A stretch of 64,000 bases of DNA from Flavobacteriaceae bacterium. Lineage in GTDB: Bacteria > Bacteroidota > Bacteroidia > Flavobacteriales > Flavobacteriaceae. How positions within the stretch are numbered: position 1 is the stretch's first letter; each line of letters opens with the position of its first letter. The notes beneath the pieces are model-generated. The model searched no databases, was not told the DNA's origin, and saw nothing but the letters and a program-made list of their open reading frames with translations. Positions 2,576 through 29,300 of the stretch are shown here, piece after piece. The DNA is taken from contig CANBOV010000001.1 in assembly GCA_947371275.1 (NCBI GenBank), positions 1 through 64,000 on the forward strand, read 5' to 3'. Made by a program: the position numbers and the translations under genes.

Positions 2576-3859
2576 TTATTTCAAAGTTAAAATGCCCTGT
2601 TTTAAAATTTGTCCGAATTCATACATGTCTTCGAATGAGCAATAAAAAGGTGCTGGTGCTAATCGGATTACATTGGGTTCGCGCCAATCGGTAATTACGC
2701 CGTTTTTCATCAAATATTCAAACAAACTTCTTCCTTGGCCATGAAGAAAAACGGAGAGTTGACAAGCTCTTTCCTGTTGATTATTAGGTGTAATAATTTC
2801 GAATTCTGCTCCTACTATTTCATTATCAATTTCATAAAGAATAAATTCAAGATAAGCGGTCAATTGATTTCTTTTGGCAATTAATTTTTCCATTCCAACT
2901 TCGGCGAACATTTCAACTGATGCTAAATAGGGTGCTAAAGACAGAATTGGCAAATTACTTACTTGCCAACCATTTGCCCCAACGATCGGATCATATTGCG
3001 GTTCCATTTTGAAGCGTCGTTCTTTATTATGTCCCCACCAGCCACCAAATCGTGCTAACTGTTTATTAGTGTGGTGCTTTTCATGAATAAAACAACCTGA
3101 AGCATTTCCTGGTCCCGAATTCATATATTTATAACTGCACCAAGCGGCAAAATCAACCTCCCAATCGTGTAATTTTAATTCAATATTTCCAGCAGCATGA
3201 GCTAAATCAAAGCCTACTCTTGCGCCAACTTTGTGTCCGGCTTCGGTAATAGCCTTCATGTCAAAAACTTGACCTGTATAATAATTAACGCCTCCAAACA
3301 AAACTAGAGCCAATTCATCTCCAACCTCTTCAATCTTTGCTAGAATATCTTCTAATCGTATGTTATGTTCCCCTTCCCTTCTTTTGATTTCGACAATTGC
3401 TTCTTCTGGCTTATAACCATGGAACCCTACTTGTCCTTGAAACATATATTGATCTGAAGGAAATGCTTTTTCTTCGCAAATGATTTTGAAGCGTGTGTTT
3501 GTTGGGTGATAAAACGAAACCATTAGTAAGTGAAGGTTCACTGTCAAGGTATTCATCACTGTTATTTCAGAGGGTTTTGCGCCTACAATTGCACTTAACG
3601 GATTAGCGAATCTTTCATGATAATCCCACCATGGTTTTTCTGCATAAAAATGTCCTTCCACTGCTAAATCTGCCCAATCTTTCATTACCTCATCTACATA
3701 AGACTTCGTTCGCTTGGGCTGAAGTCCCAATGAGTTCCCCGTAAAATAAATTACATTTTTGCCCTCATGTTGAGGAAAAACAAATTCGTCTCGGTATTGT
3801 TTTAACTCATCTTGTTTATCGAGTTGCTTTGCAAATTCAATAGTATTTTGAAAATTCAT
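2576..3859 (-). CDS. kynU: Kynureninase; start moved to internal ATG (MNFQNTIEFAKQLDKQDEL)
   Basis: PLP-enzyme sequence FDLAHAAGNIELKLHDWEVDFAAWCSYKYMNSGPG. The track's 61-aa N-terminal extension runs through a terminator hairpin at 3978-4010 and is not believable. Confidence 0.9.
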   Translation of the reverse strand: MNFQNTIEFAKQLDKQDELKQYRDEFVFPQHEGKNVIYFTGNSLGLQPKRTKSYVDEVMKDWADLAVEGHFYAEKPWWDYHERFANPLSAIVGAKPSEITVMNTLTVNLHLLMVSFYHPTNTRFKIICEEKAFPSDQYMFQGQVGFHGYKPEEAIVEIKRREGEHNIRLEDILAKIEEVGDELALVLFGGVNYYTGQVFDMKAITEAGHKVGARVGFDLAHAAGNIELKLHDWEVDFAAWCSYKYMNSGPGNASGCFIHEKHHTNKQLARFGGWWGHNKERRFKMEPQYDPIVGANGWQVSNLPILSLAPYLASVEMFAEVGMEKLIAKRNQLTAYLEFILYEIDNEIVGAEFEIITPNNQQERACQLSVFLHGQGRSLFEYLMKNGVITDWREPNVIRLAPAPFYCSFEDMYEFGQILKQGILTLK

Positions 3860-3925: not shown

Positions 3926-3977
3926 GAAATTTGATTTAAGCCAAAGATTACTTTTTAGCCCTGATCGTAATGGAAAT

Positions 3978-4010
3978 AAAAAAAGCCCTGAGTGTTTCGG
4001 GGCTTTTTTT
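3978..4010 (-). terminator. Rho-independent terminator downstream of queA
   Basis: AAAAAAAGCCC-TGAGTGTTTCG-GGGCTTTTTTT. Confidence 0.8.
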
Positions 4011-4069
4011 ATTGTAATGAAGAGCAGGAAAATGGACGGCAAGAATTCCCGAACTATTCGCTCCTGAAA

Positions 4070-13001: not shown

Positions 13002-14084
13002 CTATCCATTAATGATTTTTTCTTGATGGCTGATACTTTCTTGGTGAATTGCTTTAAATATTTTTAAAATAAACTCTTCACTCAACCCCTTTTCTTCTCC
13101 ATCTAAAATCATTTTACCTAAGATTTCGTTCCACCTTTTATTTTGTAAAACCGCTACGTTTTTTGCTTTTTTTAAAGCCCCTATTTGTTCTGCGACTTTC
13201 ATTCGATTTCCTAAAATCTCCAACAATTTGCCATCTGCAATATCAATACTTGCGCGAAGTTTTATCATTTCGGTATTGTAATCGTCCTCTTCGGTAGACA
13301 TTTTTTTAACCTTTAAGTCTGAAAATAACTTTTTTAATACCGTTGGAGTAATTTGTTGAGCAGCGTCACTCCATGCGTTTTCAGGATCATTATGAGTTTC
13401 AATAATCAATCCATCATAATTCAAATCTAATGCTTGTTGAGACACTTCTTGAATCATGTCTCTTCTTCCTGTGATGTGGGAAGGATCGCATATTAAAGGC
13501 AAATCAGGGAAACGACTTTGCAACTCAATGGCTAATTGCCACTCCGGAATATTTCTGTATTTAGTTTTTTCATAGGTAGAAAATCCTCTGTGAATAACCC
13601 CTAGTTTTTTTATTCCGGCGTTATATAAGCGTTCTACACCTCCTATCCAAAGAGCCAAATCAGGATTGACAGGATTTTTAACTAATACAATTTTATCAGT
13701 GCCTTTTAACGCATCGGCTATTTCTTGAACGGCAAAAGGGTTTACAGTTGTTCTCGCTCCAATCCACAAGACATCAATATCATGTTCTAAAGCCAATTTA
13801 ACATGTGTGGCATTTGCGACTTCTGTTGCCATTAACAATCCTGTTTCAGCTTTGGCTTTTTGCAGCCATTTTAAACCAATGGCTCCCACTCCTTCAAATC
13901 CACCAGGACGTGTTCTTGGCTTCCATATCCCTGCTCTGTATATACTTACATCAGATTTTTTTAATTCATGTGCTATTTTCAAAACTTGCTCTTCGGTTTC
14001 AGCACTGCAGGGACCTGCAATTACCAATGGATGGGTCAACTTAAAATCATCCAACCATTTTCTGTTTTCTAAAGTAATATTCAT
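13002..14084 (-). CDS. Bifunctional 3-deoxy-7-phosphoheptulonate synthase / chorismate mutase type II
   Basis: VIAGPCSAETEEQVL, GIWKPRTRPGGFEGVG, CDPSHITGRRD; C-terminal chorismate mutase helix LRASIDIADGKLLEILGNRMKVAEQIG. Confidence 0.92.
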   Translation of the reverse strand: MNITLENRKWLDDFKLTHPLVIAGPCSAETEEQVLKIAHELKKSDVSIYRAGIWKPRTRPGGFEGVGAIGLKWLQKAKAETGLLMATEVANATHVKLALEHDIDVLWIGARTTVNPFAVQEIADALKGTDKIVLVKNPVNPDLALWIGGVERLYNAGIKKLGVIHRGFSTYEKTKYRNIPEWQLAIELQSRFPDLPLICDPSHITGRRDMIQEVSQQALDLNYDGLIIETHNDPENAWSDAAQQITPTVLKKLFSDLKVKKMSTEEDDYNTEMIKLRASIDIADGKLLEILGNRMKVAEQIGALKKAKNVAVLQNKRWNEILGKMILDGEEKGLSEEFILKIFKAIHQESISHQEKIING

Positions 14085-14087
14085 AGC

Positions 14088-14939
14088 TTATGTTTTTCTG
14101 TTTAATATTTCTTTTATTCTATTGGTATTTTGCATTTCATTGAAGACTTCTTCGTAGTTTTCTTCTTCTAATAACTTTTTAAAATGTGTCAAATTGACAA
14201 TATATTCATCTAAACTATTAATAACATGTTTTTTATTTTGTTTAAAAATGGGAGTCCACATTGCAGGAGAACTTTTTGCTAAGCGTACGGTGCTTTCAAA
14301 TCCACTTCCGGCCATGTCAAAAATATCGCGTTCATCTTTTTCTATTTCAACTACTGTTTTCCCTAACATAAACGAGCTGATGTGGGACAGATGTGATACA
14401 TAAGCAATATGTTTGTCATGGGCTTTTGGGTCCATATACCGGATCCGCATTCCTAATTTTTTAAACAATTCCATACCTATTTCTTGCAAAGCAAAAGTTG
14501 TTTTTTCTACTTCGCATATTATATTTGTCTTCCCTTTGAACAATCCTTTAATTGCTGCTGATGGACCAGAAAACTCTGTTCCCGCTATTGGATGTGTTGC
14601 CAAAAAATTTCTTCTATACGGATGTTTTTCTACTGCTTCGCATATAGGTAATTTGGTTGACCCCACATCAATCACTAAGGTGTGCTCTCCAACCTTATCT
14701 AAAATATTTGGCAAAATTACTAAACTTACATCAACGGGTACTGCCACAATGACTAAATCAGCCTCAGAAATAATGTCAAAAGTGGCTTTTTTATCTATTA
14801 TTCCAAGCTCAATAGCTGTATCTAAATGAGTGTCATTAGCATCTATACCAATGACTAAACTACTTTCATAATGGGTTTTAATATCTAAAGCCATTGAGCC
14901 CCCTATCAATCCTATTCCTATTACATATACTTTTTTCAT
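14088..14939 (-). CDS. tyrA: Prephenate dehydrogenase
   Basis: VYVIGIGLIGGSMALDIK Rossmann motif; THPIAGTEFSGPSAA; SHLSHISSFML. Confidence 0.9.
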   Translation of the reverse strand: MKKVYVIGIGLIGGSMALDIKTHYESSLVIGIDANDTHLDTAIELGIIDKKATFDIISEADLVIVAVPVDVSLVILPNILDKVGEHTLVIDVGSTKLPICEAVEKHPYRRNFLATHPIAGTEFSGPSAAIKGLFKGKTNIICEVEKTTFALQEIGMELFKKLGMRIRYMDPKAHDKHIAYVSHLSHISSFMLGKTVVEIEKDERDIFDMAGSGFESTVRLAKSSPAMWTPIFKQNKKHVINSLDEYIVNLTHFKKLLEEENYEEVFNEMQNTNRIKEILNRKT

Positions 14940-14948
14940 CTTACTCCT

Positions 14949-16094
14949 TTAAAATCTTGAAATAGCCTCAATTATTTTTTCTTCTGTAACACATAATGAG
15001 AACCGAATATATCCTTCGCCATTACTACCAAATATAGTGCCTGGTGTGATGAATATATTTTTCTCGAACAATACTTTATTTATGAACGCCTCTGATGACG
15101 TATACTCGTTTGGGAGTTTGGCCCAAACAAACAAGCCAACACTATTATTATCAAAACTACAATTCAACTTCTCTGCTAGATTAAAAATCAATTTTCTTCT
15201 TTTTGCATAAATTTCATTCTGCTGTTCAAACCAATCTTTGCCTAGTTTTAATGCTTCTACAGCCCCCTTTTGAATTCCATATAACATACCACTGTCCATA
15301 TTACTTTTCACTTTTAAAACAGCTTCAATAAATTGAGATTTTCCCAACACCATTCCTACTCGCCAACCAGCCATATTAAATGTTTTGGAAAGAGAATTCA
15401 ATTCTAACGCCACTTCTTTAGCACCATTTACTTGTAGTATTGAAATGGGATGATTATTCAAAATAAAACTATACGGATTGTCATTAACAATTAAAATATT
15501 ATGCTTTTTACCGAAAGCTATTAACTTTTCAAACATTTGAATTGTTCCATTAACACCTGTTGGCATATGTGGGTAAGAAACCCACATCAACTTAACTTTG
15601 GTTAAATCATTTTGTTCCAATTGCTCAAAATTTGGCTTCCAATCATTTTGTTCATTTAAATCATAAAATACCGACTTGGCCTGAACTAATTCGGTTACAG
15701 CGGCATAAGTAGGATAACCCGGATTGGGAATCAAAACCTCATCACCTTCATTCAAAAATGCCAAGGAAATGTGCATAATACCTTCTTTTGACCCCATTAA
15801 TGGTAAAATTTCACAATTTGCATCTAGAATAACTCCAAAATGTTTTAGGTAAAAATTAGCCATTTCATTTCGCAACTCAGGCAATCCTTGATAGCTTTGA
15901 TATTCATGGGCTTTTGCTTCATGCATTGCTTCATTCATTACCTCTACAACGCTACTATGCGGTGTTAAATCGGGGCTTCCTATACCCATATTTATGACAG
16001 GTTTTCCTTCAGCGAGCATTTGACGTACTTCACGTAGCTTCCTAGAAAAGTAGTATTCCTGAACACTGTTTAATCTATTGGCAGTATTAATCAT
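14949..16094 (-). CDS. PLP-dependent aminotransferase class I/II (probably aromatic/prephenate branch by context)
   Basis: GIGSPDLTPHSSV, SLSKTFNMAGWRVG PLP-lysine motif; 4-nt overlap with pheA. Confidence 0.85.
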   Translation of the reverse strand: MINTANRLNSVQEYYFSRKLREVRQMLAEGKPVINMGIGSPDLTPHSSVVEVMNEAMHEAKAHEYQSYQGLPELRNEMANFYLKHFGVILDANCEILPLMGSKEGIMHISLAFLNEGDEVLIPNPGYPTYAAVTELVQAKSVFYDLNEQNDWKPNFEQLEQNDLTKVKLMWVSYPHMPTGVNGTIQMFEKLIAFGKKHNILIVNDNPYSFILNNHPISILQVNGAKEVALELNSLSKTFNMAGWRVGMVLGKSQFIEAVLKVKSNMDSGMLYGIQKGAVEALKLGKDWFEQQNEIYAKRRKLIFNLAEKLNCSFDNNSVGLFVWAKLPNEYTSSEAFINKVLFEKNIFITPGTIFGSNGEGYIRFSLCVTEEKIIEAISRF

Positions 16095-16918
16095 ATTTTT
16101 CTATTTTTATATTCCCCCAACACTTTGAATTGATTGGTCATTATTTTTAATATCTCAGTCGCTTTTTCATAACACTTGTACTTTTCAAACACCACATCCA
16201 CAAAAAATGAATATTGAAACGGCGTATCGATAATTGGCATTGACTGTATTTTGGTTAAATTCAATTTACAATTTGTCATTACATTTAGCACGGTAGCTAA
16301 ACTACCGGGCGTATCATCTAACTCAAATTTTATGGAGGCTTTATTAACCTCCTCCTCAGACAATTCATTTTTCATTTTACTGATGATAAAAAATCGAGTC
16401 ATATTATTATTAACCGTTTGAATTTCGGGAGCAATTATATCCAAATCATATAGTTTAGCGGCTACTCTACTTCCTATTGCTGCTATTCCCTTGATTTGTT
16501 TTTCATGAATTCTACGAGCTGTTTCTGCAGTATCATTATCTTCAACCAATTTAATTTGTGGATGTTTTTTAAAAAAATCCATACACTGCAACAAAGCCAT
16601 AGGATGGGAATGGACCTCAACTATATCTTCAATCTTTTGTCCAGTCAACGCCATTAAATTCTGTATTATATCCAAATAGTATTCCCCAATAATGTGCAAC
16701 TCGTTCTTATCAATCAAAGCATAATTAGGAATTATCGAACCTGCAATAGAATTCTCAATCGCCATCACTGCTAATTGTGACTGACTACTGAGCAAACTAT
16801 CAATCAAAGCTTCAAACGATAAACATTCATCTACAATAACGTTTTCCTTAAAATACTCCAGTGCCACTTGATGGTGGAACGAACCTTTAATTCCTTGTAT
16901 ACCAATTTTTTGCTTCAT
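16091..16918 (-). CDS. pheA: Prephenate dehydratase with C-terminal ACT domain
   Basis: MKQKIGIQGIKGSFHHQVALEYF; NNNMTRFFII; ACT-like DDTPGSLATVLNVM. The track's start at 16957 (MNPNESWDFFLII) is the read-through of the terminator hairpin, so start set at 16918. Confidence 0.9.
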   Translation of the reverse strand: MKQKIGIQGIKGSFHHQVALEYFKENVIVDECLSFEALIDSLLSSQSQLAVMAIENSIAGSIIPNYALIDKNELHIIGEYYLDIIQNLMALTGQKIEDIVEVHSHPMALLQCMDFFKKHPQIKLVEDNDTAETARRIHEKQIKGIAAIGSRVAAKLYDLDIIAPEIQTVNNNMTRFFIISKMKNELSEEEVNKASIKFELDDTPGSLATVLNVMTNCKLNLTKIQSMPIIDTPFQYSFFVDVVFEKYKCYEKATEILKIMTNQFKVLGEYKNRKI

Positions 16919-16925
16919 AATAATC

Positions 16926-16954
16926 AAAAAAAAATCCCAACTCTCGTTGGGATT
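16926..16954 (-). terminator. Intrinsic terminator directly before pheA (attenuator terminator)
   Basis: Minus-strand RNA AATCCCAAC-GAGA-GTTGGGATTTTTTTTT; perfect 9-bp stem + U tract; ends 8 nt before the pheA ATG. Confidence 0.9.
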
Positions 16955-16976
16955 CATATATCGTATGTTTTCTTTT

Positions 16977-17066
16977 TTACTTTTTCACATAACACAATAC
17001 TAATCCCTTTCTCTGCATAAAGAAGAAATAAAAGAAATAATTGTAATAAGTGTTAAATAGTCTCAT
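16977..17066 (-). CDS. Phe/Tyr leader peptide of the pheA operon: MRLFNTYYNYFFYFFFMQRKGLVLCYVKK*
   Basis: Codons ATG AGA CTA TTT AAC ACT TAT TAC AAT TAT TTC TTT TAT TTC TTC TTT ATG CAG AGA AAG GGA TTA GTA TTG TGT TAT GTG AAA AAG TAA; 9 of residues 7-16 are Phe or Tyr; followed by terminator then pheA. Confidence 0.88.
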   Translation of the reverse strand: MRLFNTYYNYFFYFFFMQRKGLVLCYVKK

Positions 17067-17222
17067 TGATTTTTTTGTGTTTGGCTAATATAAAAAATAA
17101 AACTTTTGGTTTGACATAAAAATAAATAAATAATTACGCTAACGTTTTCGTAAAACAGCATAAAAACGGTATTTTTTCTTTATCGATTCATTAATTATTA
17201 CATTTGTGACAAATTATCTCCC

Positions 17223-24799: not shown

Positions 24800-24954
24800 T
24801 TATTCTTCTTTACAAAAATTTATAAATAGTACCCTGCGATGAAATAAAAGCCTTCAGTTTAAAAGTTTAAATCTGTTGGAAATATTTCCATCTGTAGCTC
24901 AGGAGCTCCTAAATTATAGTATGTGTTATCTTGAAAGTGAGAGGAATTCTCTGG

Positions 24955-25055
24955 GTTATCTGTTCTCAATTTAACGAGATAGAATGTAGCACCTTCTTTT
25001 GGCAAAGGGTTGCTAAGCTTTCAACGGGTCTATTCCCTCCAGCTTTCGTGATAAC
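24955..25055 (-). promoter_or_regulatory. SAM-I (S-box) riboswitch upstream of metH
   Basis: Minus-strand GTTATCACGAAAGCTGGAGGGAATAGACCCGTTGAAAGCTTAGCAACCCTTTGCCAAAAGAAGGTGCTACATTCTATCTCG...CAGATAAC: P1 GTTATC/GATAAC plus S-box cores GGAGGGA, GACCC..TGAAA.C, AGCAACC, GGTGCTA. Confidence 0.92.
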
Positions 25056-25196
25056 AAACAATACGATTATGAACGGCACAAAGTAAGAACATAGAAACGG
25101 GATTTGCAAGCAAATTAAAAAAATAAAAACCTACAACGTTTTAGTGCTACAAGTATTAGTGGATTATTATTGATTAATTTTATAAATTACTGTTTC

Positions 25197-29201: not shown

Positions 29202-29209
29202 CACACGAA

Positions 29210-29300
29210 AATGGGAGGAAAAATTTGAACTGATTGCAACCTCGGTAAAAAATGCTAAAGCAGAAACTCTCCTTTAGCATTCCCTGCAATCTTTTTTTTT
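29210..29300 (+). promoter_or_regulatory. Structured metK 5' leader: nested stems followed by U9; possible SAM-responsive element
   Basis: Outer stem GATTGCA (29232-29238)/TGCAATC (29285-29291), inner stem AATGCTAAAG/CTTTAGCATT, then 9 T. GGAGG..TTTGAA..GCAACC..TGCTAAA order resembles a shortened S-box core. Confidence 0.55.

Follow-up and report, generated by a model that had tools for sequence, protein, structure and literature searches.

How is an operon for phenylalanine and tyrosine synthesis controlled in Flavobacterium, the source genus of the 64-kb stretch of DNA analysed here (the window)? Ahead of pheA, on the minus strand, there is a short reading frame crowded with aromatic codons followed by a terminator-like hairpin, which a preliminary description of the locus took to be a leader-peptide attenuator.

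The pheA operon

The gene upstream of the operon, gldA, is divergently oriented, and the operon itself contains the following genes.

16091..16918, minus strand: pheA, prephenate dehydratase (best NCBIfam match NF008865 at 200.5 bits, below the cut-off of 219; PF00800 above its cut-off)
14949..16094, minus strand: class I/II aminotransferase (best NCBIfam matches are LL-DAP aminotransferases, below cut-off; its place between pheA and tyrA is conserved)
14088..14939, minus strand: tyrA, prephenate dehydrogenase (NF006307 at 389.9 bits, above the cut-off of 295)
13002..14084, minus strand: DAHP synthase with a C-terminal chorismate mutase domain (NF006421/NF009239 and chorismate mutase domain matches, below cut-offs)

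By its context the aminotransferase is probably the aromatic one. The order pheA-aminotransferase-tyrA-DAHP synthase is kept in 26 of 27 named loci of 3-11 kb; the exception (L080) has the DAHP synthase directly after pheA, without aminotransferase and tyrA, and its leader retains Tyr codons.

An aromatic leader ORF and its promoter

In describing the region before pheA we refer to the 5' arm of the terminator as segment 3, to its 3' arm as segment 4, and to the stretch just past the aromatic codons as segment 2.

17085..17092, minus strand: promoter -7 box TATATTAG, resembling the Bacteroidetes TAnnTTTG, 26 nt before the leader ATG
17066-16977, minus strand: leader peptide ORF, MRLFNTYYNYFFYFFFMQRKGLVLCYVKK and a stop codon, 29 codons, predicted from sequence and conservation
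17019..17048, minus strand: control codons YYNYFFYFFF, read from the sequence, with a pN/pS of 0.20 for the aromatic codons
16979..17061, minus strand: hairpin 1:2 (anti-antiterminator), minimum free energy fold of -14.4 kcal/mol, control codons on the 5' side and segment 2 on the 3' side
16997..17007, minus strand: segment 2, GGGAUUAGUAU, complementary to segment 3 and co-varying with it
16949..17007, minus strand: antiterminator hairpin 2:3, from folding
16932..16955, minus strand: terminator hairpin 3:4, segment 3 at 16955-16946, loop GAGA, segment 4 at 16941-16932

The 29-codon frame with YYNYFFYFFF that had been proposed as the leader matches the minus strand letter for letter. It is unique on both strands of the window as an ATG-started ORF of 12-45 amino acids with at least seven Phe/Tyr in ten codons, its own density being nine in ten; shuffled windows contain a mean of 0.2 ORFs with at least seven and never reach nine, and when the 400-nt upstream region was shuffled 2000 times, 19 shuffles reached seven and none reached nine. 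An in-frame ATG at 16957 (minus strand) lies at the 5' edge of the terminator, with the frame open through the hairpin into pheA, and is probably accidental because the relatives align from the ATG at 16918.

A simple alternative is that the hairpin is a constitutive partial terminator, or the maker of a small RNA, and that the ORF encodes an unrelated hydrophobic peptide or arose by chance in U-rich DNA. The genome is AT-rich, Phe and Tyr codons are T-rich, and shuffles occasionally give six aromatics in ten, all of which would favour a chance ORF; against it, the amino acids encoded are exactly the operon's products, Phe and Tyr, and such an ORF is not expected to conserve aromatic codons amid synonymous change. 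Among similar leaders pN/pS is 0.35 for the whole ORF and 0.20 for the aromatic codons (the pairs are not independent), and by this measure the predicted leader is under coding selection.

The signals for expression point the same way. A -7 element has been described for F. johnsoniae (PMC6847099), and the box in the window would place the transcription start near 17080. Of 140 loci, 124 have TAnnTT[TCA]G in the 75 nt preceding the leader ATG, usually between -23 and -38, whereas base shuffling predicts 17. The context of the leader ATG is A-rich, with A at -3 in 68% and at -6 in 63% of 140 leaders, and a Shine-Dalgarno-like 4-mer is found in none of the 140, which matches the A-rich start context without Shine-Dalgarno described for F. 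johnsoniae (PMC6847099). Together, coding selection, start context and -7 box make the leader very probably the first thing to be transcribed and translated.

Conservation of the leader in Bacteroidia

Regions upstream of pheA were gathered from the genus, family and class (110 from Flavobacteriaceae and 60 from other Bacteroidia), and a leader was scored wherever an ORF had six or more aromatic residues in a stretch of ten. In Flavobacteriaceae 108 of the 110 have one (106 starting with ATG, two with TTG), compared with 2.4 in shuffles, so that the conserved Phe/Tyr runs which an alignment of the family ought to reveal are indeed there. Elsewhere in the class a leader is found in at least 39 of 60 regions and in 16 of 24 families (0.7 in shuffles), and there is one further leader beyond these 39 that starts with GTG. 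Conservation of a predicted leader extends over most of the class Bacteroidia. The same scan found no leader at 30 pheA loci from other classes of the phylum, these loci being best-scoring matches in an uneven sample; absence from the sampled classes would point to an origin within Bacteroidia.

The leader is missing from about 20 other Bacteroidia pheA genes, namely those of one family (f13), part of another (f16) and several single loci. The attenuator reading would have been refuted by homologues with a hairpin and no aromatic ORF, and there are none in Flavobacteriaceae: in the two loci without a leader (L117 and L139) the terminator was not found either. Outside Flavobacteriaceae, L170 has a hairpin without a leader ORF, and this hairpin abuts the end of the upstream gene.

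The leader sequences diverge widely while the aromatic run stays, as in MSNNRFYFSNTYYFFFRK, MTKQYFWNGFYFYFFFKRGTGLL and MNTFFTYFNFWFYFFGKYRVVL. At least two Tyr codons accompany Phe in all 140 leaders analysed, which fits the earlier proposal that both products are sensed. A Trp codon is present in 74 of the 140. Leaders other than those of the main Flavobacterium clades repeatedly have one Trp codon within the aromatic run (YFWN, FNFW), and Trp may therefore be a third amino acid that is sensed.

This pattern of divergence bears on a second alternative, in which a free amino acid or drug, rather than uncharged tRNA, makes the aromatic peptide arrest the ribosome that is translating it. TnaC and Erm leader peptides act by such nascent-peptide arrest, and the pheA leader peptide is likewise hydrophobic. 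However, none of the analyses points to arrest. Relatives differ without constraint in how many F, Y, W and N residues they have and in what order, at constant aromatic content, indicating codon counting and not a specific arrest sequence, and parallel leaders use His, Trp or Ile/Val before the matching operons (see below). We regard an arrest sensor as extremely unlikely.

Two competing helices co-vary

The terminator stem is exact, AATCCCAAC-GAGA-GTTGGGATT on the minus strand, and it is the one terminator-like site between 11000 and 19000. The preliminary description gave it as a 9-bp hairpin with nine U residues ending 8 nt before the pheA ATG. The stem and the run of nine Ts stand, although the stem takes up two of the Ts, so that the tail is about seven long; the U tract runs to 16926, and the distance needs correction, the pheA ATG at 16918 being 7 nt further on. 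The alternative pairing is present as proposed, GGGAUUAGUAU (17007-16997) with AUAUGAAUCCC (16959-16949) giving ten pairs, one of them G.U, and one mismatch, and folding enlarges it to an interrupted 17-bp hairpin of -13.5 kcal/mol. The energies in the window are nearly equal (terminator -13.7, 2:3 -13.5 and 1:2 -14.4 kcal/mol).

The compensatory changes that the attenuator reading calls for are present in both competing helices. In 46 Flavobacteriaceae sequences helix 3:4 has 100% of cells paired and 30 double changes, and helix 2:3 has 88% paired and 22 double changes; the helix 2:3 counts are lower bounds, since MAFFT shifts segment 2 by one column in the CGAGAC group and leaves seven rows out of register. 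Neither covariation score was matched by any of 500 shuffles, counts that overstate the significance because related sequences are not independent. Segment 3 therefore co-varies three-way, with segment 2 and with segment 4. Segment 3 has 48 different cores in the class as a whole, and segment 2 changes with them, as in the 2:3 pairs GGGATTG:CAATCCC, AGGATTG:CAATCCT, CGGGACT:AGTCCCG and CGAGACT:AGTCTCG, and further in CGAGGCT:AGCCTCG, CCGGGTT:AACCCGG and GGCGGGA:TCCCGCC. A permutation test that is independent of the alignment, with one representative per core, gives a 2:3 pairing score of 17.06 for the leaders' own segments versus 12.62 (sd 0.39) with segment 3 permuted, and none of 10000 permutations was as high.

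Spacing and ribosome position

We sought segment 2 in 140 leaders over a range of -60 to +60 relative to the run's last aromatic codon. Its first base lies at +9 to +17 in 129 of them, which is the expected place for the leading edge of a waiting ribosome. In the window segment 2 starts 14 nt past the first base of the run's last Phe codon. Neither this fixed spacing to the last aromatic codon nor the co-variation of helix 2:3 is expected of a chance ORF in front of a constitutive terminator, and we consider that explanation very unlikely.

The ribosome was modelled as covering 15 nt on either side of the P-site. Across 131 loci, a ribosome waiting on the last aromatic codon hides about 8% of segment 2 and one that has reached the stop codon about 80%, and segment 2 is at least half covered in none of the 131 in the first state and in 108 in the second. 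Clades differ in whether the stop codon precedes segment 2, falls within it or follows it, and the outcome for coverage is usually unchanged. A ribosome at the stop would cover segment 2 of the window's own leader only in part, because 25 nt separate the end of its GGGAUU core from the end of the stop codon.

For RNA lacking segment 4, the 2:3 pairing has a mean probability of 0.90 while the ribosome waits and 0.00 once it stands at the stop; the corresponding values for the window are 0.94, with the ribosome on the run's final aromatic codon, and 0.00. Pairing of segment 2 with the control-codon region has a probability of 0.72, compared with 0.50 in codon-shuffled leaders, and is higher than shuffled in 103 of 118 leaders. 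Even with no ribosome present, equilibrium folding before segment 4 is made yields helix 2:3 in 99 of 118 leaders, and termination of an untranslated leader would therefore require hairpin 1:2 to fold first during transcription.

A probable four-segment attenuator

The locus thus combines an ORF of end-product codons, an intrinsic terminator just before pheA, a mutually exclusive and co-varying antiterminator, the spacing between codons and segment 2, and a 1:2 hairpin. Anatomy, co-variation and spacing together are what an attenuator predicts, and no rival considered here predicts them all. The region is very likely a classical four-segment, ribosome-mediated transcription attenuator of the pheA operon; conservation, the co-variation of both helices and the spacing all support this earlier reading, and from them we infer the regulation itself.

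Control would operate through the supply of charged tRNA-Phe and tRNA-Tyr. RNA polymerase would start about 14 nt before the leader ATG. With ample Phe and Tyr the ribosome would pass YYNYFFYFFF, reach the stop codon and sit on or near segment 2, and with segment 2 occupied the 3:4 terminator would form just before pheA. When Phe or Tyr is short the ribosome would wait in the aromatic run, barring segment 1 from pairing and leaving segment 2 free just ahead; 2:3 would then pair, the terminator would not form, and the operon would be transcribed. Termination, its relief on starvation, the dependence on leader translation and the coupling of ribosome to polymerase are all presumed in this scheme.

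Bacteroidota have an unusual sigma factor and no Shine-Dalgarno sequences. A working classical attenuator needs the first ribosome to pace RNA polymerase closely, and in the literature on transcription-translation coupling in Bacteroidota we found no paper settling the question. An attenuator conserved in dozens of Bacteroidia would be a ready-made natural reporter for coupling. The pheA leader would also supply a missing regulation for aromatic amino-acid synthesis, and it adds small ORFs that gene callers have overlooked.

Relationship to known systems

The closest parallel is pheL-pheA of Escherichia coli and other gammaproteobacteria, with a Phe-rich leader, 1:2, 2:3 and 3:4 hairpins and a terminator just before pheA. 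In contrast to pheL, the leader described here would govern a combined Phe, Tyr and DAHP synthase operon, contains Tyr codons (and Trp in 74 of 140) and has no Shine-Dalgarno sequence. The Rfam family Phe_leader (RF01859) matches at full length with a low score, 26.2 bits against a gathering score of 55, and has no match at the gathering score in 20 related loci; at 26.2 bits, a common origin is not demonstrable. Matches of the leader to the csRNA, PyrR, STnc100 and BTnc231 families are far below threshold and were judged to be due to chance. The pheST (pheM) leader of E. coli contains Phe and a Tyr codon, and differs in controlling a tRNA synthetase operon. The enterobacterial trp and his attenuators use the same mechanism, and have Trp and His counterparts in Flavobacteriaceae, but they concern other amino acids in other organisms and Shine-Dalgarno-led translation.

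The idea that such attenuation had no prior description in Flavobacteria does not hold. The main text of a transcriptomic study of Flavobacterium psychrophilum (Guerin et al. 2021, PMC9723704) reports 'strong clues' that leader-peptide attenuators precede amino-acid operons, and a structured 5' element of pheA, conserved in other Flavobacteriaceae genera and without an Rfam match; gene and organism family are those of the present leader. That main text gives no leader sequence, competing structure, co-variation or reach beyond Flavobacteriaceae. A transcriptome paper on B. thetaiotaomicron mentions short ORFs reminiscent of attenuation leaders (PMC7366714), and Naville and Gautheret (2010) stated that, before their own Firmicutes case, leader-peptide systems were known only in Proteobacteria and Actinobacteria (PMC2965389). 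The mechanism is classical. New, as far as checked, are the anatomy and co-variation of the element, its spacing rule, its content of both Phe and Tyr codons, and its range across the class.

For the F. psychrophilum study the 5' element of pheA was a structured cis-regulatory RNA of unknown type (PMC9723704), which would favour a third alternative, that the 5' RNA binds a small molecule, a tRNA (as T-boxes do) or a protein, and that the ORF is secondary. However, searches of the window's leader and of the leaders at 20 related loci gave no above-threshold match to a T-box, an aptamer or any other Rfam family, and the RNA outside segments 1-4 is short and poorly conserved. Such a ligand-binding RNA is improbable in the extreme.

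Sister leaders and neighbouring RNA elements

The same search design, applied to Flavobacteriaceae relatives, finds leaders for other amino acids. Runs of His precede hisG at 27 of 28 loci (L216-L243, with L217 weak; e.g. MTFIQLHHHHFHTCTQAS), runs of Trp precede trpE at 29 of 29 loci, with a terminator found at 25 (L244-L272; e.g. MNTILNNTWWWNFRNATFVK), and leaders rich in Ile/Val precede some ilvD genes, 11 of 30 with a terminator (L274-L303; e.g. MKRHILNIISVIVIVIISQG). Taken together, most of these leaders have a terminator behind them. Because these His, Trp and Ile/Val leaders are found in the family, the pheA leader is one of a set of predicted attenuators in Flavobacteriaceae. We think it likely that amino-acid operons all across the class Bacteroidia are controlled, as a standard device, by ribosome-mediated attenuation, which if true would require tight transcription-translation coupling at the leaders in organisms that have no Shine-Dalgarno sequences in their mRNAs. 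The window's own genome, an assembly that is 87% complete, has no match to hisG or ilvD, and most relatives have both; the other attenuators were therefore studied in the relatives. A loss of His and Ile/Val synthesis from this genome is possible.

The window carries further RNA elements. A SAM riboswitch (RF00162) at 24953-25057 on the minus strand and a SAM-II riboswitch (RF01726) at 29209-29268 on the plus strand lie about 4 kb apart. A Flavo-1 RNA (RF01705), a motif of unknown function, is present at 3953-4035 on the plus strand, and the pheA locus of a relative (L062) has a second copy at 3625-3767, next to its gldA gene.
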